From positions 17,908-81,907 of IMG/VR virus record IMGVR_UViG_3300045974_000399: a DNA stretch of 64,000 nt; one strand, written 5' to 3'. A program made the translations under genes and the position numbers. Numbering within the stretch: the first letter of the stretch is position 1; each line of letters starts with the position of its first letter. This stretch comes from a virus. Shown one piece after another: positions 1 to 46,844 of the stretch. Under the pieces are notes generated by a model, which was given only the letters and a program-made list of their open reading frames with translations, ran no database searches and was not told where the DNA came from.

Positions 1-909
1 CCTGTTTATATTGCAATTCAAGGTGGGCCGGCTTGGGTTATTTCTTAAGTAGTTTAGGCCTCTGATGTCTGCTGATTTGAAGTTTTGTGCGGCAGATTGC
101 TCAGGGACGCTATCAACTAAGTCCTGTATAAATCGGTTCATGTTCATATTGTACGGAGGATTAATCTTGTGGTCGGATACCTTGGAGATAACTATGTCGG
201 TATTCTTTAGCTTACGGAGCCTCTCAAAGATGTGTAGAATTTCACCTGATCTACCTGGTAAGACGTTCAACACAAAGACAAGATTATCATTAGGAATGGG
301 GTCAAAATAGTCGTATGACAATCTACTGAATTCTTGGTCAAAGTTATCTACATTTAGTGACCTGAGGATCAGGATCTTTGTAGGTAGTATTCGGATAAAA
401 CCCATCAAGTCATCATCCAAGTTAAGGCCATTAGTGAATAGTGTAATGCTATCAAAAGAGTGATACACACCCAACAATAGATTCTTTAATGCCCCCTTGT
501 CAATAGTAGGCTCACCCCCAAAGATATGTAAGTCTCGTATACTAGGATATAGCTCTTTATGCTTTAAGATGTGAGTAACGGACGCAAAGTCAGCTACGGG
601 TCTATTCCTACTCAGACAATACTCGCAGCTTAGATTGCACTCTGAGTTTGATACTACCAACGTAGTGTACTTTATTTCCTTTCGGTCTAGAGTATTGGCA
701 TAAAAGATTTGTCTCTGCTTAGGCGTTACCTCTTTTAGGTACACGCTACAAAACTGAACGTCTTCTATGCCCTCGCTGGATATTGAGATCAAAGGACTTA
801 CTTCAGCAAAGTTATCAAAAAGTATGTGACCATCTTTGACTTTTATTATGAACCCAGAAGTAACATCAGACAGAGCAATTAAGTTGTTTTTGGTTATTGC
901 AGGAATCAT
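1..909 (-). CDS. Radical SAM enzyme, truncated at the left window edge
   Basis: Partial gene: 303 codons are open from ATG (907-909) to the window edge with no stop. Cys91, Cys95 and Cys98 form the CxxxCxxC motif that binds the [4Fe-4S] cluster of radical SAM enzymes, and FGGEPT at residues 130-135 is the SAM-binding GGE motif. About 85 residues precede the cysteines, as in peptide-modifying SPASM-type enzymes with an N-terminal substrate-binding region; the SPASM part, if present, lies outside the window. The ATG overlaps the upstream stop (ATGA), so translation is probably coupled to the tail operon. QueE or NrdG are alternatives, but they usually carry the cysteines nearer the N-terminus and would be odd in a tail operon. 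Radical SAM family assignment is strong; the substrate is inference. Confidence 0.85.
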   Translation of the reverse strand, partial: MIPAITKNNLIALSDVTSGFIIKVKDGHILFDNFAEVSPLISISSEGIEDVQFCSVYLKEVTPKQRQIFYANTLDRKEIKYTTLVVSNSECNLSCEYCLSRNRPVADFASVTHILKHKELYPSIRDLHIFGGEPTIDKGALKNLLLGVYHSFDSITLFTNGLNLDDDLMGFIRILPTKILILRSLNVDNFDQEFSRLSYDYFDPIPNDNLVFVLNVLPGRSGEILHIFERLRKLKNTDIVISKVSDHKINPPYNMNMNRFIQDLVDSVPEQSAAQNFKSADIRGLNYLRNNPSRPTLNCNINR

Positions 910-1658
910 ATTGCAGATACTCGATAATAGCTACTGTAGATTCCAAAAGAAGTACCTGCTATGTTTATGGTCTTACCTGATTTGAACACGTACTCACCAG
1001 AAACATTGAGAGTTATCTCAGCCTTGTGCAGATGCAAATCTAGGAGTGGATATGCTCCAGTACTTGGGTTAAGCTTAAGCTCCGTTATGTCCCTTAAAAG
1101 GTAGACTGAAGCAGCGCTATCAGAGGGACTAGATACAACCTCCAGAGAAACCTGACCAAGGGGGTCATACAGATTAAAATCCAGAGTTGTCGGATAATTA
1201 GGGCTAGATACCCAAGCTTCTCTTGATCTGTAAGCTACTACCTCAAGGCCATCCCTACTAATGCACTTGGTTATCAAACGGCTTGCTAAACGAGACTGAA
1301 GAAATGCACACAGCGTATCTGGATCGCTGAAGTACAAGAGGTTTATGTCTGCGTGTCGGTATATTGTAACTCCGAGCAAGTCCGTGGTATCCAGTATTCC
1401 GAATGAGCTTAACTCAAGCTCAAACTTGCTCTTGTAAAAGGATAGATCTTTAGTCTCCTCGTAGTCAAAGCCCCTGAAGGTGAAATCCCTGGCAGTTATC
1501 AAGGATACACCTTCCCGAATATTATTGTAAAACGGCGTGGCATTCAGATTAACGTCCGTAAGGATAAGACCCGAGGGGTCACCCGCTATATCAGGTACAA
1601 CCCGAATTAAGTCTGCCGTGCTAGCTGCATTCTTGTCTTTAACCATTAAGATCAACAT
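906..1658 (-). CDS. Virion-associated protein of unknown function (250 aa)
   Basis: I do not recognise this protein. It is acidic to neutral, mostly predicted beta, and has no membrane segment or signal peptide. The start ATG at 1658 follows GGAG by about nine bases. It lies between the tail-fibre gene, 27 bases upstream, and the radical SAM gene, with which its stop overlaps. A tail-tip protein, a fibre chaperone or an adaptor for the radical SAM enzyme would all fit this place. Nothing in the sequence decides between them. Confidence 0.75.
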   Translation of the reverse strand: MLILMVKDKNAASTADLIRVVPDIAGDPSGLILTDVNLNATPFYNNIREGVSLITARDFTFRGFDYEETKDLSFYKSKFELELSSFGILDTTDLLGVTIYRHADINLLYFSDPDTLCAFLQSRLASRLITKCISRDGLEVVAYRSREAWVSSPNYPTTLDFNLYDPLGQVSLEVVSSPSDSAASVYLLRDITELKLNPSTGAYPLLDLHLHKAEITLNVSGEYVFKSGKTINIAGTSFGIYSSYYRVSAI

Positions 1659-1685
1659 GTGTTTGTCTCCTAGAGAAGATTGACG

Positions 1686-3812
1686 TTACATCATTCCTTG
1701 GCAGCAGCTATGCGGAGAATAAAACTGACAAGTGCAAGGACAGGTACAGGTACAAGTGCAAGTACATGAGCAAAACTGAACGTTAGGCGGGTTAGAGTCA
1801 GAATATGGAACATACACAGGATTACTCGGGTCCGAAGTAAACGTTAGCTTTAGTGCATTCCCCAGAATCATATCCTTAGCTGGAACCAGAACATGGGCGG
1901 CAGCTGCATCCGTTTTATCGTATGCTAGTAAATTATACTGACCTGCCAATTTTTCAGCAGAAACCGGAGGGGCGATACCGTTCAAAGTAACTGTATTAGT
2001 TGCATTGTCCAGAGCTATGGTTAGGTAGCTACCTACAGCAATATTAAGAACATCCTCCGTGCCCTTGGCTATGATAGGTGTTTTACCTGGAGAGGCTATC
2101 GTTTTATACGCCAGCAACGTGCCGAGATTTGTTATGGTCATGGTTTTATTTACAGGGTCTGTTATTACAGCAACACCTGTACCACCATTTACTACCAGAG
2201 TATCCTGTAAAGCATTCATGTTAATTTGACCCTGCGAAGCATAGGCAGGGGTACTATTCGAGACCGCAATAGAGTGAACGTTCTGAGTGGTGTTTGTAAC
2301 CGTTATGGTCTCGGTAGCTGGATCTGTGGCTAAACCTATTCCCGGTCCAGCGCTAATTGCTCTCCGTGTTCCAACAATTCTACCCCAGGTAGAGTTACCT
2401 TCGTAGATAAGATAATCTCCAACGTTAAAGTGAACCCCACCCATTGTACCCTGAAGAGATATCTTCCAGTAGTGACCCTGACGAAGTTCAGTAAATATCG
2501 TGGTTGGTGTAGCGGGAGGATAAACTCCAGAGGAAGCGTCCCAAAGCCCTTTGTATAAGACATAGGGTAGCTCTGTGTTGTCAATCTTGTCCCACAAGCC
2601 AGTTCCTTCGTATACCAGCCAGTCACCTGTTTGGTAAGCTACGTTATTCAAGACCCCACCTACAGCGATAACGTAGTAACTACCGGGTGTTACTGCGTTG
2701 TTTGGATATCCTGCTGCGCCGGCATAAGTTCCATCTGGATTCTTGATATTCCAGCGACCTGCATATACCAAACCGGCAACGTGAGAGTAGGGCAATGACC
2801 AGATTATGATGTTTGATTTATCCGCCTCATTGTTAGCCGCCATGTTTACAACTTGGCTGGTGGGTATGATTGTTCCTGTTGTGGTTATCCCACAAGGATC
2901 CGAACTTTCCGGGGTAGCACCTGTTGCACCCAGCAAAGATAAGGCTTCATACAGCACCTCAAACTTACCTGTAAGTGCACCTGAACTGTGATACTTTATC
3001 GCCCGACATTGACCCTTACCTCGACCGGAATAGATATACATGAACGCCCAGTCAACAGAAATAAGTGGTGGCGGGGAGTCTACGATTAACGCAGAAAACA
3101 AGGTAAACGTATTGTGTACTCCGTCACCTGCCCCTGGAGAAGTTTCAGGAACGTCAGATGTAACACTCGTTACGGTACCCTGATATAGCAAGGAGCCATT
3201 CAAGAGACCCCAAGCTAGTGGGCCAGTATCAGACATTGCATACCGGGTAACGATTGCAGGATGAATCTTGGTATTCGTGGGAGAGTAATCCTTTGTTATC
3301 CCATGATTGACCACGTAGGCGTTACTTCCCGTCTTGGCAGGATGAGGAAGATCCCCATAGAAGTTGACTCGGGGTAAACTCATGGCCCAAGTCAGAGTCA
3401 AGTCAACTACTGAGCCCAAATAAGGAGATAATAAGACACAGTGCGTCTTATATATCTGACCAGGCTGCTTGACTATAGGCTCCGCGTAACAGGTAAGGGC
3501 AAAAAGTATCTGGACTCCAGCATTATTGGGGTCATCAATGTATAGACCGATTTCCCCAATAAACAAAGGACCTAGACCGGATGCGGTAACAGGTACAGTA
3601 CATACAAAGTCCATTACCTCATCCGTTAAAACGTCTACTGTGCCTATTGTCCCCTCGTACACTATTTCCCCATGAAGTGCAGTGTCCTCTTTCACAGGCG
3701 AGTAGTTTGTTCCGCTGCCTACCTTGAAGTTGAGTATCTGAAGCTTTATCTGCTTTGAGTTCGCATCAAGTATTCTTTCGTACCCGATGGCTGTTATCTG
3801 CATAGTGCTCAT
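1686..3812 (-). CDS. Tail fibre protein with Cys-Thr repeat C-terminus
   Basis: The N-terminal ~150 residues match the phage tail-collar fibre family (P2 gpH-like N-terminus): a short ITAxG opening, a 'FKVGSGTNY' stretch and an 'IGEIGLYI' strand. Glycine- and threonine-rich beta repeats follow. The last 28 residues are exceptional: CSCTCTCTCTCPCTC, then a short spacer and a final CC pair, giving ten cysteines. Synonymous codons are mixed in the run (TGC/TGT, ACT/ACC), so it is kept at protein level and is not a fresh microsatellite. I start at ATG 3812 because AAAAGGAG lies six bases before it; a more upstream reading frame start has no such site. The protein is 708 aa. It follows the baseplate genes as P2 gpH follows gpI. 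Confidence 0.85.
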   Translation of the reverse strand: MSTMQITAIGYERILDANSKQIKLQILNFKVGSGTNYSPVKEDTALHGEIVYEGTIGTVDVLTDEVMDFVCTVPVTASGLGPLFIGEIGLYIDDPNNAGVQILFALTCYAEPIVKQPGQIYKTHCVLLSPYLGSVVDLTLTWAMSLPRVNFYGDLPHPAKTGSNAYVVNHGITKDYSPTNTKIHPAIVTRYAMSDTGPLAWGLLNGSLLYQGTVTSVTSDVPETSPGAGDGVHNTFTLFSALIVDSPPPLISVDWAFMYIYSGRGKGQCRAIKYHSSGALTGKFEVLYEALSLLGATGATPESSDPCGITTTGTIIPTSQVVNMAANNEADKSNIIIWSLPYSHVAGLVYAGRWNIKNPDGTYAGAAGYPNNAVTPGSYYVIAVGGVLNNVAYQTGDWLVYEGTGLWDKIDNTELPYVLYKGLWDASSGVYPPATPTTIFTELRQGHYWKISLQGTMGGVHFNVGDYLIYEGNSTWGRIVGTRRAISAGPGIGLATDPATETITVTNTTQNVHSIAVSNSTPAYASQGQINMNALQDTLVVNGGTGVAVITDPVNKTMTITNLGTLLAYKTIASPGKTPIIAKGTEDVLNIAVGSYLTIALDNATNTVTLNGIAPPVSAEKLAGQYNLLAYDKTDAAAAHVLVPAKDMILGNALKLTFTSDPSNPVYVPYSDSNPPNVQFCSCTCTCTCTCPCTCQFYSPHSCCQGMM
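1728..1772 (-). other. Alternating Cys-Thr tract coding segment
   Basis: Fifteen codons near the 3' end of the tail-fibre gene encode eight cysteines, each separated by one residue: Ser once, Thr five times, Pro once. The tract is a candidate site for thioether cross-links, disulfides or metal binding. Confidence 0.9.
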
Positions 3813-3840: not shown

Positions 3841-5679
3841 CTAGCCAAAATCCACTATTTTTCGAGACTTAACATCAGATAACTTTGCCACGTTTCTGCA
3901 TAAATACTGGATAGTAACACCTTCTTCAATCTCAGAGCACTCAGGAGTAATTTCCACTAGTCTAGGTATCCCGAATATAACCGCGTTATAGTCAGGATAT
4001 GGAGAGTACAAAACCATCTCAGAAGGAGCAAGCATGTAAAACATATCTACTACGCTCTTATCTAAAGGTAAATGCACAATATCATCTCGGGTATATGGCC
4101 TAAGATGATTCCAGTAGCTACGATATGTAGCCGGTGTAGTTATACTTGATATGAGCGCCCAGGATGAGGGGTTAGTTGTAGGATACTGATTCGTAGACAA
4201 TGCCCCTGATGCTACAGTGCACTTGTAAAATTTGCCCGAGGTCAACTCATACCTAGAGGTAGCATAAGGTTTTCCCGAGCCAACGTGAACTATATCTCCT
4301 ATATTGTACGGAATGAAAGGGTTCCAGATACCTTTGTGGGCTGCGGCGTCCGCGTCGGTCCAAATCAGACTGGAGGATCTAACTGACCACTTACTTAAGG
4401 TATCCGCGGGAGTAACATTGGGATTTATATGACCAATTCTAGGGTCTCCTGCGGTTAAGGTAGGATAGTGTAGATTAGACCCCATCATAAGATATATCGG
4501 TGCATAGTTTACAGTGCACACGTAGTCAATACCTGGGTCATTCTCATAAATTTCAGTCGTATAAATATTAGTTACAGGATTTACTGGTAGAGTCTCAGGA
4601 CGATAAAATAGCAGATAATTGCGGGTGTATAACTGAGTCAGAGTCCACGTGTCTGTAGGATCGCGCTGTTTCAACAGGAAGTTCAACAACAGCATGAATT
4701 TATCTGTGCCAGCCACAGACTTATACCTAGAAAGGTATATAACATAGTTAAGAAATGTTCCTGATAAAAGCCAGCTGAATTTGCTGAGGTCAAATCCCAA
4801 AAGTTTAGAGGTACGTGAAACTATTTCTGGATGAGTATCAATGGTTATCTGCCTAAGCCTACCTAGCTCTACGATAGGCATATCTACCTGGTCAAGAAGT
4901 GTTTCATCCGAAGCGGAAATATAGTCGGCAATGAACGGAGAATCCTGCATCCAAGGGGGTGCTTGTTTCTTACGAAGCGGAATATACTCCCACACTTTAA
5001 CGTATATATTCCAAGAAGTAACCGTAACAATAGAGTCTGGATCTACTCCACCTACAGAATCAGAGTCAACGCCACCAATGGAATCAACGCTTACGGTTAA
5101 ACTTGTTGGACTAGAAGAGGTTACAAATCCCTCAACAAAGGTCTTACTCTTTCCAGGTAGGGTACAGGAACAACGCACTCTTTCATTTACTGCTATTGTG
5201 TTCCCTGTAACTACAAACGTTAAACTACCATACCCGATATTATGAGAGGTCGAACTAGTTATTGGGGTGGTATAAAAATCCTTCCGAAAGGAAGCCGATG
5301 ACTCATGCCGAGAAACGCACACAAAGTGTATATGACCATACAGAACAATCTCATTCTCAGAGTACAGATGTCTAAATATCCAAGGTCGAGGTAAATCCCA
5401 GGACAGTCTATTCCAGCGACGCGCTAAGAAATCGGTCTTAAATAGCGTACTCGGGTTATGCGCTATCACGCACTCATAAACTGAGTTGTCATATTTTACA
5501 TTTTGTCCCACCTGGTATAGTTTTGTCCATATAGCGGGGTTTGATTCTGGAGCTTTCCCAACATTACTTTCTACCGCTGTATATATGAATCCGCTCCGAA
5601 GTACTACTGCGTTTATCAGATACGCTGTGCCAATATTCCAGGGCGTAGTAATTCCAGGTTTCCATATGTCCGCTCGCAT
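3841..5679 (-). CDS. Baseplate/fibre-linker protein with carbohydrate-binding-like modules
   Basis: At 612 aa, this gene sits where P2 encodes gpI, between the J-like wedge protein and the tail fibre, so a role linking fibre to baseplate is likely. Near the N-terminus and again around residues 480-520 are short motifs of the pattern W-x-(5)-Y-x-x-G-D-x-V plus 'Y-x-C', like type 5/12 carbohydrate-binding (chitin-binding type 3) modules. The middle contains a small beta domain with a repeated 'GGVDSDS' loop. Start ATG 5679 has AGGAGG six bases upstream. The gpI role is inferred from position; the modules are inferred by eye. Confidence 0.7.
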   Translation of the reverse strand: MRADIWKPGITTPWNIGTAYLINAVVLRSGFIYTAVESNVGKAPESNPAIWTKLYQVGQNVKYDNSVYECVIAHNPSTLFKTDFLARRWNRLSWDLPRPWIFRHLYSENEIVLYGHIHFVCVSRHESSASFRKDFYTTPITSSTSHNIGYGSLTFVVTGNTIAVNERVRCSCTLPGKSKTFVEGFVTSSSPTSLTVSVDSIGGVDSDSVGGVDPDSIVTVTSWNIYVKVWEYIPLRKKQAPPWMQDSPFIADYISASDETLLDQVDMPIVELGRLRQITIDTHPEIVSRTSKLLGFDLSKFSWLLSGTFLNYVIYLSRYKSVAGTDKFMLLLNFLLKQRDPTDTWTLTQLYTRNYLLFYRPETLPVNPVTNIYTTEIYENDPGIDYVCTVNYAPIYLMMGSNLHYPTLTAGDPRIGHINPNVTPADTLSKWSVRSSSLIWTDADAAAHKGIWNPFIPYNIGDIVHVGSGKPYATSRYELTSGKFYKCTVASGALSTNQYPTTNPSSWALISSITTPATYRSYWNHLRPYTRDDIVHLPLDKSVVDMFYMLAPSEMVLYSPYPDYNAVIFGIPRLVEITPECSEIEEGVTIQYLCRNVAKLSDVKSRKIVDFG

Positions 5680-5689
5680 GGAGTTCCTC

Positions 5690-7642
5690 CTAGTTCGGAA
5701 TAAGCTGTATTGAACCGTCAGCTCTAGTAACCTTAGTAAAGTTACCAGCCGCCTCCGAGGGGTCCACATAATTTACAGTATTCCGACTGGAGTAACCGGT
5801 TTCAATAACCAGATCACTACTGGAAACACTTATGTATGCGGGGGGTGTTGGTATGCCCGTTACGGGATGCACCGAAATTGGTATAGGGATAAAGTCAGAC
5901 GCAGGTACTAAGTCACCCGCTGGAGTTGGGTCAAAAAACTCTATATAGTCAATTTCAGGAATACTTGTCTTAAGGATATTAGATATATCTGTGAGTGCTA
6001 TTCGCTTATTCAATATCTGCTGGCTTGTGCTGAACACACTCAAAATAAAAGTTCTAGCACTAGCTGCAACCGTGGATAAATCTGTCCTCAAAAAGCACAT
6101 TATCTTTACTTGTAACTTGCGGGCATCCTTTATAGGATTCTGAGGTTTAAGAATTGAACCCTTATACTTATACTGGTCAAACCAGGTTAGAAACGCTGCC
6201 CACTCTGAGTTTGTCCAGTTTACGCCTGTATCAGAAAGAATACTCACCCATATTAGATTCATAAGCTTTGGGTGTGCATCTGTGGTTGTAAGGATATAAT
6301 CCACGGTCTCAACAGGATTTATTGGAGGCTCTGCGCTCTTATCCCAGAGTGGAATCATCATCTTAAGCAAGAGATCTCTTTCAAAGCGAATACAGACATC
6401 TCCAACCCCTGGATACGATAAACAATATGCAATATGGTCATCTGTTGTAACTGCTCTACAATTAGCTTTGAAGAGCATTGAGGCAGTAGCTTTGTAATAG
6501 CGTGCCGGCCTTTCATCATGCCCTGTGGCAGTAGTAGTCAAAATCCAAGTGCCTGCAGCTAACAGTTTTGCCTTGAAGTTATTTACGATAGATACAGTAG
6601 CATCCCTGCCGGAAACATGAACAATGGTTCCTATTCCGACTCCAGTTACCTCTTCTATCTGAAGTCCGACAAAAGACTTAGACCAAATACTACCAACAGG
6701 TAGATTAAATATTGGCAGCGCATCTGTGATTGAACTGATTTGAATAGATACGCTAGAAAGAGTCATACCCTCTGCGCTTTGCAGTACATTATCACGAGTT
6801 ACAAATCCCTTGACACCCTGTGGGGGTGTACTATTTAGGATAGCATTCAGAGTTACCGAGCTAAAGACCGAAGTAATTGGAGAACTGGCACCTAGGGTCT
6901 CAACATAAGTTATTTCTATGCTAGATCCATAAGCTGGTTTGGCACCATTTATTCCGTTACCAAATTGTAGTACAACGTCACCTGTCCCTAAGGTATCATC
7001 CACAAAAACAGTTGCGGAGGGGCCATAATTCCAAAGGCCGTCAATTATGCGTGTCCAAGTTACACCGCCAATTATCATCCTTATGTCTAAGTCTGAGATA
7101 CTCATTGGAGATATAGCAGGTATCGACAACTGCTGAAAGTCTGTTCCATCGGAAACATAGTTTCTGTAGTATAGAGAACCTTGATGTATAAATACTTTAT
7201 CAATTGCTGAAGTTGGATTACCTGAGATATCATTGGCAAAAGTTATCGGCGTTCGATTGAAGTAGTCAACACCAAGAACGTTAAACTGGGAGTACTCAGG
7301 AATAGTTACAGTTCCGGTTATTGGAAGAGTATCCTGAGAAAACCTGTTAAGCGTTATAATTTGCGCTGCAGGAAGCTTACGCATTATCCTAACACCTAGC
7401 ATCCGAGTAAGCGCATATATCGTGCTATCTCTATTTGCTGTGTCAAAAAAACCTTCCTTTAGTGACTGCTCGATAGACCACTGATTGTAGGTTCCAATTG
7501 CGCTGTTATGCTCAATCAGAGTTTCACCTGTAGACCCTTCGTTAAGATCAGTCCAAGAGTCTCTTTGCTTAAGGTCATCCTGAAGCGCAGCTACATAGGA
7601 TGTAAAATCTGCTTTTACGTTTATTAAATCCAGTTTTGGCAT
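5690..7642 (-). CDS. Baseplate wedge protein, gpJ/T4 gp6-like
   Basis: At 650 aa, the N-terminus has the pattern of baseplate J-like proteins: an acidic 'DxLxxRDSW' segment, a conserved ~20-residue helix, 'IYALTRMLGVRIMRKLPA', then a long beta-rich core. J-like proteins form the wedge ring around the baseplate hub and trigger sheath contraction. The gene follows the gp25-like gene with a 21-base gap, the order seen in P2 (W-J-I) and in many myoviruses. GGGAGG lies about eight bases upstream of the ATG. Confidence 0.85.
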   Translation of the reverse strand: MPKLDLINVKADFTSYVAALQDDLKQRDSWTDLNEGSTGETLIEHNSAIGTYNQWSIEQSLKEGFFDTANRDSTIYALTRMLGVRIMRKLPAAQIITLNRFSQDTLPITGTVTIPEYSQFNVLGVDYFNRTPITFANDISGNPTSAIDKVFIHQGSLYYRNYVSDGTDFQQLSIPAISPMSISDLDIRMIIGGVTWTRIIDGLWNYGPSATVFVDDTLGTGDVVLQFGNGINGAKPAYGSSIEITYVETLGASSPITSVFSSVTLNAILNSTPPQGVKGFVTRDNVLQSAEGMTLSSVSIQISSITDALPIFNLPVGSIWSKSFVGLQIEEVTGVGIGTIVHVSGRDATVSIVNNFKAKLLAAGTWILTTTATGHDERPARYYKATASMLFKANCRAVTTDDHIAYCLSYPGVGDVCIRFERDLLLKMMIPLWDKSAEPPINPVETVDYILTTTDAHPKLMNLIWVSILSDTGVNWTNSEWAAFLTWFDQYKYKGSILKPQNPIKDARKLQVKIMCFLRTDLSTVAASARTFILSVFSTSQQILNKRIALTDISNILKTSIPEIDYIEFFDPTPAGDLVPASDFIPIPISVHPVTGIPTPPAYISVSSSDLVIETGYSSRNTVNYVDPSEAAGNFTKVTRADGSIQLIPN

Positions 7643-7663
7643 CGGCTGTGCCTCCCTAAAGTA

Positions 7664-8041
7664 TTAGCTGCGCTTGAAAACCAAAGGAACTGTTGACTTA
7701 GAACCTGTAGCCATATTAACTATTACCAGCGATATATAATAAGCGCTATCGTCTTGAGATTCCACTACCGCAGTTTCATCTTCTACTACTTTACCCCGTG
7801 GCTCATACTGCGCCGCGTACATCATTTCATCTTTGATGTAGGATGCTGTAAGAGCACAAACCGGCTGAAATAGAAGACTGATTATGTCGCACCCAAGATA
7901 ATACTTGAAGGGACGGTCTCCCCTTAGGGTGCTAAACAAGTTTATAAAACTATTCAGAATGGCGCGGTCGTCTTCCAGTAAGATAACGTTAGAATCGGCC
8001 CCAAAGAAAGTGTTGATATCCCTGTAAAGTGGCTTTGACAT
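7664..8041 (-). CDS. Baseplate wedge protein, gp25/W-like
   Basis: At 125 aa this has the usual length and layout of the GpW/Gp25 family. The short N-terminus with 'VILLEDDRAILNSFINLFST' and 'RPFKYYLGCDIISLLFQPV' corresponds to the conserved 'AIxxSIxNILxTxxGER...P.fG' core. The protein forms the inner wedge that joins the sheath to the baseplate. It lies directly before the J-like gene, which supports the call. The start overlaps a copy of the recurring TAATTTAGG motif whose AGGGAG also serves as the ribosome binding site. Confidence 0.85.
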   Translation of the reverse strand: MSKPLYRDINTFFGADSNVILLEDDRAILNSFINLFSTLRGDRPFKYYLGCDIISLLFQPVCALTASYIKDEMMYAAQYEPRGKVVEDETAVVESQDDSAYYISLVIVNMATGSKSTVPLVFKRS

Positions 8042-15541: not shown

Positions 15542-16105
15542 TTATCGAGTAATTGGTCTCTCTATCTTGCAGGAATCAACTGATAGAGTTACCTTTAGAG
15601 ACAGTCGTTCTTCTGTAGAAGTAAGCGCCAGTGGTTCTATTTGGGTTGGCCATATCCCTGAGAGTATGGCAGTTGTAACGATGTTACCTGTTATGTCAGA
15701 CAAAAGGCTTGCCTCAAGACGTGCCTTATATACATCAGGTAACGTGTAACAACCTTCATAACCTGCTCCGCTCTCTAGGATAAGATTCTGCCATTTTAGA
15801 ACGCGATCCAGAGTGGTTCCCTGGTTATCTTCATACAGCGTTAAGACCGTTGAGTTAACGTTGTTGAATCCAGGAAAGTAAGTTTTGCTAGCTTGAATAT
15901 GAACGTCCGTTATGTCAAAGTAAGGAAAAGGCATATCTATGGACTCGACATGCGTTTTTAACCAAGCATTGTCAAACAGCGTAGAATTATACGCTGCTCC
16001 CTTACCAATTGCCAGTGATCTAACCACCCAGTGCGTAGATAAGAGCGGAGAACCTAGACTATTTACGCTGGCAATATCTGTTAACCAAAGTCCGGCTCCA
16101 GCCAT
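15542..16105 (-). CDS. Second tail tube-like protein
   Basis: At 187 aa this is similar in length to the tube protein just upstream. It shares features of the myoviral tube fold: an N-terminal 'STHWVVRSLAIG' strand, a central 'PYFDITDVHI', and a C-terminal beta pair. It may cap or initiate the tube, or it may be a tube paralogue. A strong terminator separates it from the tube gene. AGGGAG precedes the ATG. Confidence 0.6.
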   Translation of the reverse strand: MAGAGLWLTDIASVNSLGSPLLSTHWVVRSLAIGKGAAYNSTLFDNAWLKTHVESIDMPFPYFDITDVHIQASKTYFPGFNNVNSTVLTLYEDNQGTTLDRVLKWQNLILESGAGYEGCYTLPDVYKARLEASLLSDITGNIVTTAILSGIWPTQIEPLALTSTEERLSLKVTLSVDSCKIERPITR

Positions 16106-16127
16106 GGCTGCACTCCCTATCTGAGAA

Positions 16128-16153
16128 AAGACGGGGCAACTACGCCCCGTCTT
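16128..16153 (-). terminator. Terminator after the tail tube gene
   Basis: A ten-base-pair perfect stem (AAGACGGGGC / GCCCCGTCTT) with a six-base loop is followed on the minus strand by TTTTCTC. It lies 22 bases after the tube stop, so it may trim or attenuate transcription between the abundant tube and the less abundant downstream tail genes. Confidence 0.75.
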
Positions 16154-16174
16154 CTCGGTGATTTCCCTCTGGTA

Positions 16175-16720
16175 TTAAATGCGCTCTACTTCAAAGTAGT
16201 CATACCTGAAGTTTGCGCTTACGTCCACGAAAGCCGCACTGGAGTTATCCAACGCGGTATCGGATACGTCCGTACACCAGAAGTTCTTGAACGTGATGAT
16301 CTTGACAGGTGTTGCTCCGTCAATCTCATTATACACATTCAGCAGGGCACTCATTGCCAGATAACCGCCGGGGAGCTGATTTTTTCCGCCACTGAGCTGC
16401 GTCCGGTAGTCTCGGGCCGCTTGCACCCAGCCAAGCATGGATGAGTAGATTTCGAGAGCATTGCTTTCGTTGTAGGTAATGCCCAGTGTTCCTGGGAACG
16501 TTGTCCGTCCGGCGAAGTTCAGCTTGTACCCGTGAAGCGGCAATTCCTGCGGCTCATTGGTAAGGCCAGGCATGCTGATGGTCTTGCAGCGGATCCGGAG
16601 TGCTTCTCGTGCAACCCGGTTACCGAAACCGGTAGGGATGCCTGTGAGAATCAACTCCCAGTTATCGGACATAAGAGGACTGTCGATTACTAGAGTTTCG
16701 TCAATGGTTATCCTTGCCAT
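16175..16720 (-). CDS. Tail tube protein
   Basis: At 181 aa, directly after the sheath gene, the length and position are those of the T4 gp19-like tube family. It contains strands such as 'PLMSDNWELILTGIP' and 'FPGTLGITYN', and ends 'NFRYDYFEVERI' as tube proteins often do. Codons are biased to G/C endings like the sheath and capsid genes, which fits high expression. The ATG has an AAAGGAG site. A strong terminator follows. Confidence 0.85.
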   Translation of the reverse strand: MARITIDETLVIDSPLMSDNWELILTGIPTGFGNRVAREALRIRCKTISMPGLTNEPQELPLHGYKLNFAGRTTFPGTLGITYNESNALEIYSSMLGWVQAARDYRTQLSGGKNQLPGGYLAMSALLNVYNEIDGATPVKIITFKNFWCTDVSDTALDNSSAAFVDVSANFRYDYFEVERI

Positions 16721-46058: not shown

Positions 46059-46844
46059 TTACGCTTTATGCTTCAAGGCATATAGCGTGTAAGTATCCCC
46101 GGCAGTGGGGGTTATTACAGGCGCGCCAGAGTTGAAGAAAATAACAGACAGGGTTGTGCTGTTTGCGAAACTACACCCCAAAATGGTTAGCCCGGCTTGC
46201 AAAGTCTGTTTTGTCAGCCGAATAGGAATGTCCGTGGCGCTTAGCCCAGTAAAACCATCCAGGTACTGTTCGCTAATACCTGTAGCTACCCCGTTAAGAG
46301 CTCCGGTGGACGCATGGGATACAACTTCGTACCCATTGAGATATGCTGCGTCTGTTGCGCTTGTGGCACTTGTTGCTGTGTCCGCGGTAGTAGCGTGGTC
46401 CGCATTGGTGGCTGTGGTAGCTGTTGTGGCTGTGGTAGCAGAGTCTGCGGTGGTAGCATGACCGGCATTGGTAGCTGTTGTAGCTGTAGTGGCTGTAGTG
46501 GCGCTATCGGCAACAGTAGCATGTCCTGCATTTGTTGCTGTGTCAGCGGTAGTAGCATGATCCGCATTGGTAGCAGAATCAGCTGTGGTAGCATGACCAG
46601 CATTAGTCGCGGTAGTAGCTGTAGTTGCATGACCGGCATTGGTAGCGGTATCCGCTGCTACCGCATGGGCTACAGTACCCTCGAGATCAATTATGCCCAC
46701 TGCAGTAATGTACCCCGTTGATAAAGCATCAGAAAGGTCTGCTGACAGCGCGGATACTTCAAAAGAAGCACCAGCAGTTCTTTCCATGCCGTCAAGCTCA
46801 AGAGATCCATTCCCAATCTTACCTGTTACTGTGATCTTAATCAT
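46059..46844 (-). CDS. Fibre protein with A-T-x tripeptide repeats
   Basis: This 261-aa protein has three parts. Residues 1-55 align with the N-terminus of the fibre at 34418-35836. Residues ~57-170 are tripeptide units of the form Ala-[Thr/Asp/Gly]-x, e.g. 'ATNAGHATTADS', which would form a regular beta or triple-stranded shaft. The end is a beta-rich head from 'YLNGYEVVSH'. The DNA repeats with synonymous differences. Such A-T-N-A-x repeats occur in some phage fibres. A trimeric head or collar fibre is likely. AAGGAG precedes the ATG. Confidence 0.75.
   Translation of the reverse strand: MIKITVTGKIGNGSLELDGMERTAGASFEVSALSADLSDALSTGYITAVGIIDLEGTVAHAVAADTATNAGHATTATTATNAGHATTADSATNADHATTADTATNAGHATVADSATTATTATTATNAGHATTADSATTATTATTATNADHATTADTATSATSATDAAYLNGYEVVSHASTGALNGVATGISEQYLDGFTGLSATDIPIRLTKQTLQAGLTILGCSFANSTTLSVIFFNSGAPVITPTAGDTYTLYALKHKA

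Follow-up and report, generated by a model that had tools for sequence, protein, structure and literature searches.

The logic of a cysteine-repeat target matured by an adjacent radical S-adenosylmethionine (SAM) enzyme with a SPASM domain is known in bacteria, and its application to a phage fibre, as proposed here from sequence comparisons, appears to be new. The locus concerned lies in a 64,000-nucleotide stretch of viral DNA (the window), positions 17908-81907 of the 81,907-base IMG/VR record IMGVR_UViG_3300045974_000399, itself a fragment. It comprises a tail fibre that ends in alternating cysteines, a small gene, and two radical SAM genes, RS1 and RS2. Among described systems, the CXXX-repeat target/maturase pair TIGR04114/TIGR04115 likewise sets a Cys-repeat protein beside a radical SAM/SPASM maturase, whereas here Cys-Thr repeats with a period of two are fused onto a large tail fibre. 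The SCIFF/ranthipeptide maturases (CteB/ScfB, PapB) resemble RS1 and RS2 in domain architecture and in the proposed thioether chemistry on Cys, and are the top structural neighbours suggested by predicted models, but their substrates are short with a longer Cys-acceptor spacing, and RS1 and RS2 score far under their cut-offs.

Two further systems join repeats to radical SAM enzymes. HxsA/HxsB/HxsC (Haft and Basu, as cited in PMC9062424) combines a short-period repeat with two such enzymes; the locus here differs in having Cys rather than His and a phage fibre rather than a bacterial repeat protein, and no HxsD was identified. In the TvgA/TvgB poly-cyclopropylglycine system one radical SAM enzyme works repeatedly along a repeat motif, although its chemistry is C-C bonding at Val and its target a small peptide (PMC9062424). 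The HxH needle of T4 gp37 is also a fibre with alternating metal- or bond-forming side chains, but its residues are His and no modifying enzymes are known for gp37.

The cysteine tip of the fibre

The fibre gene is on the minus strand at 1686-3812. Its reading frame opens at TTG 3848, in which numbering ATG 3812 is Met13; this ATG is most likely the true start, giving a protein of 708 residues, because the fibre of a relative described below begins there. Membership of the tail-collar-type fibres is indicated by a match to PHROG 1162 (tail fiber, E=4e-7) and by a baseplate wedge gene close by, and a Phage_tail_fib (PF12571) match stands at the N-terminus, its expected position, with 19.1 bits, under the 23-bit cut-off.

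The fibre C-terminus reads FCSCTCTCTCTCPCTCQFYSPHSCCQGMM. Ten of the 15 fibre cysteines fall within the last 28 residues, eight of them at alternate positions from 693 to 707 (CSCTCTCTCTCPCTC; 1728-1772, minus strand), separated by S, T, T, T, T, P and T, and two as the terminal pair Cys715-Cys716 (1701-1706, minus strand). Both features had been described in a first-pass annotation made from the window alone, as a run of eight Cys mostly alternating with Thr and a final CC, and both are present as described. C.C.C.C.C did not arise once when the fibre protein was shuffled 200,000 times, so the run is not a product of chance composition. Its codons are mixed (TGC/TGT and ACT/ACC), and it sits in the true coding frame, whereas nearly all other CxCxC matches examined are frame artefacts of repeats.

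A second phage, represented by four IMG/VR records (L130-L133) that are identical across the compared 5-kb stretch, has the same gene order: baseplate wedge, fibre, a gene of 245 codons and four tandem radical SAM genes. Its fibre (L130:10004-12568) is 44-45% identical to that of the window and ends in FCGCTCTCTCQCTAPCNCC or, with the upstream segment, NPVYVPY...FCGCTCTCTCQCTAPCNCCKG, so that the pattern NPVYVPY...FCxCTCTCTC...CC is kept, including the terminal Cys pair. The tips are 55-58% identical, compared with 25% for the preceding 160 residues, and 9 of the 21 identical tip codons differ synonymously. Since the tip is more alike than the residues before it and its codons have changed synonymously, the comparison indicates that selection maintains the Cys pattern in the protein, in agreement with the earlier claim that the run is kept at the protein level. 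The NPVYVPY segment (1803-1823, minus strand), 10 residues ahead of the Cys run, is identical at 7/7 residues in this only close relative, and may be an enzyme recognition or folding element. The TIGR04114 target model matches neither fibre.

Pattern scans covered 2.9 million viral contigs of IMG/VR. For FCxC[ST]C[ST]C[ST]C the scan was complete and returned the fibre of L130-L133 as the only other genuine fibre C-terminus; the longest rival open reading frames (ORFs) checked were antisense to EQEQEQ linkers or to other longer ORFs. The looser CxCxC gave at least 120 matches; all those listed are in short ORFs and were taken to be artefacts of repeats or of another frame, and the L124 candidate shadows a Pro-Ala linker. 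No match was found in the viral contigs with the fibre tail alignment as query, and FCxCTCTCTC in 84,980 bacterial and archaeal genomes yielded 39 loci with no convincing coding case, one of them (L260) ambiguous. Elsewhere in the window, a 158-residue frame with 27 Cys (46245-46718, plus strand) lies opposite a longer ORF (46059-46844, minus strand) and is probably an artefact.

The adjacent radical SAM enzymes

The fibre gene is followed after 27 bp by the gene for a 250-residue protein with no function assigned (906-1658, minus strand), which overlaps RS1 by 4 bp. The earlier description of a radical SAM enzyme with CxxxCxxC and GGEP motifs, two genes downstream in a tight operon, is thus accurate. 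RS1 is cut by the window edge (1-909, minus strand); the record sequence to its left completes it at 417 residues (G000:C1:17563-18816) and uncovers RS2, of 414 residues, overlapping it by 11 bp (G000:C1:16329-17573). RS2, outside the window, had been out of view in the first-pass annotation. The core motifs are CNLSCEYC in RS1 and CNMDCSFC in RS2, and GGEP is present in both. The core motif together with PF04055 marks them as radical SAM enzymes: in the genome search with PF04055 they score 29.6 and 45.9 bits respectively against a cut-off of 29.5; in hmmscan RS1 gives 27.6 bits, just under it.

As the signature of a SPASM domain we took a C-terminal Cx9-15Gx4C ... Cx2Cx5Cx3C ... C. RS2 has a pattern of this type, C311-x9-G-x4-C326, then C363-x3-C367-x5-C373-x3-C377...C388. 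RS1 ends in the canonical Cx2Cx5Cx3C, with a non-standard first half and with extra conserved CxxC and Cys residues. Completion of RS1, which had been suggested as a way to look for SPASM, thus reveals a C-terminal Cys cluster of that type, and RS1 and RS2 can be assigned as SPASM-domain radical SAM enzymes on the Cys motif rather than on a listed SPASM model match.

Their finer placement is given by profile scores. Sub-threshold matches in the NCBIfam library scan include many peptide maturases (PapB, CbpB, HxsB/C, SkfB). The SCIFF/ranthipeptide maturase models (TIGR03974, NF047865) are far from their cut-offs, RS2 scoring 46.8 bits with PapB against 340 and RS1 16.7 with SCIFF against 425; with HxsB and HxsC, whose cut-offs are 370 and 268, RS2 reaches about 34 bits, and His repeats were not found. 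TIGR04115 is not among the best NCBIfam matches of either enzyme. PHROG 1802 is the best PHROG for both, at 75.1 bits over residues 49-400 of RS2 and 36.4 bits over the core alone of RS1. Identity with QueE or NrdG was dropped, as RS2 scores 32.1 bits with QueE and 34.1 with NrdG2, below peptide-maturase models and PHROG 1802, and both enzymes have the C-terminal Cys clusters; on this point, too, the first-pass proposal holds. AlphaFold models of RS1 and RS2 are poor (predicted local distance difference test, pLDDT, 41.5 and 44.7), and the Foldseek ranking comes from such models; for RS2 it places the sactipeptide/SCIFF thioether maturase entries 5why/5wgg at the top, with anSME among the matches. 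Close relatives of RS1 and RS2 were not found in the viral contigs, and a search of bacterial genomes for relatives of the enzymes gave none; an RS2-family alignment recovered the phage of L130-L133 and two weak core-domain matches, and nothing further.

The four radical SAM genes of that phage encode 454, 372, 406 and 422 residues (L131 shows one, since its contig ends there). The 454-residue enzyme is RS1-like (2e-11), while those of 406 and 422 residues are RS2-like (34-35% identity; PHROG 1802 at 65.4 and 41.0 bits), the former with a canonical Cx2Cx5Cx3C. The 372-residue enzyme (L130:14700-15818) is MiaB/RimO-like, with 148.5 bits to TIGR00089 against a cut-off of 251, and its match runs out short of the model's C-terminal end, where the RNA-binding TRAM domain would be expected. 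It is possibly a methylthiotransferase for a protein tip. No similarity was detected between the 245-residue product and the 250-residue protein of the window, which occupy the same position. Two more radical SAM genes in the record of L130 (G002:C1:133309-133716 and 79130-79492) lie far from the fibre cluster.

Recurrence in other phages and genomic setting

By its portal, terminase, sheath and baseplate genes the virus belongs with the PaBG/Lu11-like jumbo myophages, the portal being 46% identical to that of PaBG. The related fibres of Lu11, PaBG, Motura and phiXF1 have no Cys repeats at their ends. PF04055 has no match in the whole genomes of Lu11, PaBG, phiXF1 and RHph_N46, which show no Cys tail near the fibre; Motura has one match, far from its fibre. 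Records named 'Bacteriophage sp.' with radical SAM matches were set aside as short, unannotated and perhaps bacterial. The co-occurrence anticipated in the first-pass annotation is therefore observed: the sole other genuine Cys-Thr tail sits by four radical SAM genes, and tail-less relatives are without a fibre-adjacent one. The correlation is clean, with few independent points.

A weak radical SAM match led to a further set of phages. Erwinia phage Phobos (KX397372) has two tandem radical SAM genes and two proteins of PHROG 6085, of 128 and 132 residues (L287:7010-7396 and 7409-7807), each with 21 Cys in CxxxCxxxC repeats; their ORFs lie opposite the annotated gp168/gp167, which are probably spurious, wrong-strand annotations. 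In SPN3US, Kwan, CR5 and Caitlin, too, a virion structural gene is directly followed by the same two Cys-repeat proteins and two radical SAM genes; this SPN3US-like set covers phages of Salmonella, Erwinia and Cronobacter. In SPN3US the first repeat protein, by the two radical SAM genes, is an unannotated one of 130 residues with 21 Cys (L289:3094-3486), and the second (L289:3497-3901) has been given an internal start in its annotation (SPN3US_0166). The published mass-spectrometry search of SPN3US virions (PMC5694885, PMC10052503) set carbamidomethyl-Cys as fixed and drew on a database of 273 SPN3US sequences. One SPN3US-type repeat protein scores 25.6 bits and the other 17.8 with TIGR04114 (radical SAM target Cxxx; cut-off 20), and one of the enzymes scores 113.7 bits with TIGR04115, against a cut-off of 350. 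The enzyme is present at >80% coverage in 61 phage records, and the adjoining structural gene in 63. Enzymes and Cys-repeat protein are both absent near the homologous structural gene of the distant relatives pVa-21, Goslar, Joad, PhiEaH1 and PhiPA3.

In Burkholderia phage FLC8, which has three PHROG 1802 radical SAM genes, the 186-residue gp72 (L299:14642-15202) follows fibre-like genes and ends CHSSCHTSCHGSRGRR / VCHSSCHTSCHGSRGRR (a CHSSCHTSCHGS tail). The three radical SAM genes and a gene for a cupin-like protein lie beside it. PHROG 1802, annotated just as radical SAM, is common to RS2, the relative's 406- and 422-residue enzymes and those of the SPN3US-like phages and FLC8, and when the RS2 family and the SPN3US-type enzymes are aligned as profiles, the match spans 286 columns, including the SPASM region, at 96% probability. 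Weak HxsB/HxsC matches occur in the enzymes of the relative and of FLC8 as well. In all these lineages the Cys-repeat proteins adjoin fibre or virion genes, as in the window, but in the SPN3US-like phages and FLC8 they are separate small proteins and not part of a large fibre.

This distribution bears on a purely structural role of the cysteines, in which alternating Cys facing the trimer axis would bind Fe, Zn or an Fe-S cluster, or pair as disulfides, while the radical SAM enzymes act elsewhere. CxC is a common metal ligand, and the spacing of two fits the HxH of fibre needles such as T4 gp37, which binds iron (PMC11705849). Such a tip would leave unexplained why the repeats of the relative and of further lineages come with SPASM enzymes, and why relatives that lack one lack the other, and the SPN3US-type repeats have a period of four, not two; we consider it improbable.

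Upstream of the fibre are a tail protein (3841-5769, minus strand), syntenic with L130:7805-9973 at 24% identity, and the baseplate wedge protein that anchors the synteny (5690-7642, minus strand; 40% identical to L130:5945-7798). The tail protein also has a carbohydrate-binding CBM_5_12 match (6e-11). Left of the window, downstream of the radical SAM genes, is a 505-residue collagen-like tail fibre with a GPQGPQG repeat (L003:13657-15174). A 218-residue protein there (L003:15190-15846), whose N-terminus is signal-like and which matches TIGR02594 weakly (0.014), may be a lysis gene; it is preceded by a possible holin of 122 residues (15859-16227).

Proposed maturation of the tip

The best overall explanation, which we regard as fairly probable, is that the radical SAM/SPASM enzymes modify the Cys-repeat tip; that RS1 and RS2 act on the fibre tail, a link with strong genomic support, is more probable still. 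The Cys-Thr tail would form the distal end of the fibre and would be acted on, before or during assembly, by the two enzymes encoded just downstream. With a 5'-deoxyadenosyl radical and the help of auxiliary Fe-S clusters these would modify the Cys run, most likely by thioethers from Cys sulfurs to carbons of nearby Thr, Ser or the backbone, inside one tip strand or across strands. They would split sites or steps between them, leaving an irreversibly cross-linked tip. Two enzymes jointly serving one sactipeptide system is a known situation (PMC12093266).

A thioether product is favoured because of the analogy with PapB, CteB and the Cxxx-repeat maturases, and stands at a little under an even chance. 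The interpretation of the first-pass annotation, in which the cross-linked fibre tip would be a rigid, protease-resistant point, is partly supported. A different product on the same residues, such as formylglycine (as made by anSME), L/D epimerisation giving a beta-helical needle (as by PoyD/YydG), methylthiolation or C-C cross-links, is less likely, though it deserves some weight. Radical SAM/SPASM families perform all these chemistries, strict alternation would suit epimerisation of every other residue, and there are weak YydG epimerase matches (18.7 bits for RS1, 26.8 for its counterpart in the relative), besides the anSME match of the RS2 model and the relative's added MiaB/RimO-like enzyme. 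Conservation, however, picks out cysteine, and thioether/ranthipeptide and Cxxx-repeat maturases are among the models that RS2 and the SPN3US-type enzymes match best below threshold.

Several observations weigh against tip modification by RS1 and RS2. No NCBIfam maturase model reaches its cut-off for either enzyme, and no RRE domain or leader peptide was identified. In characterised thioether peptides the bridges span several residues, unlike Cys at every second position. The Cys-Thr fibre is known in two independent genomes only, and the 250-residue protein, or a small peptide elsewhere in the genome, could be the real substrate. Campylobacter phages have many radical SAM genes and no Cys-repeat ORF in the one region examined (L288), so that the presence of such genes in a phage does not by itself imply that a fibre is modified.

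Phages CP220 and CPt10 of this host, with 11-12 radical SAM genes read as metabolic modules (PMC2853527), and viperin-like models among the top domain-level matches of the NCBIfam scan would fit enzymes that serve an unrelated target (a host metabolite, a nucleotide or the 250-residue protein) and that, as cargo, lie beside the fibre by chance. SPASM clusters indicate peptide or protein substrates, however, the order of fibre, small gene and radical SAM gene is held across about 45% identity, and three lineages have such enzymes next to Cys-repeat proteins and virion genes; chance cargo is accordingly the least likely of the explanations considered.

Radical SAM maturation of cysteine peptides has so far been known for small bacterial peptides, and no report of such maturation of a virus structural protein was found in the open-licence literature searched; earlier papers give phage radical SAM genes without a substrate or as metabolic (PMC2853527, PMC11898562). 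The broader reading is that several unrelated jumbo-phage lineages build cross-linked virion tips resembling ribosomally synthesised and post-translationally modified peptides, in which the Cys repeats, either at the end of a fibre or on small fibre-like tip proteins, are matured by a phage-specific family of radical SAM/SPASM enzymes, PHROG 1802. We regard the case for such a general, hitherto unrecognised class of viral post-translational modification as evenly balanced. As a distant relative and two other lineages of giant viruses show the same pairing of tip and enzyme, chemical hardening or tailoring of the attachment tips is probable in these phages. If so, virion proteomics that relies on standard annotation and treats a cysteine modification as fixed would miss such proteins, a large set of unexplained phage radical SAM genes (at least 61 SPN3US-like records and FLC8) would acquire a function, and phages, including cultured ones that carry such systems, would have a new route to stable attachment tips.

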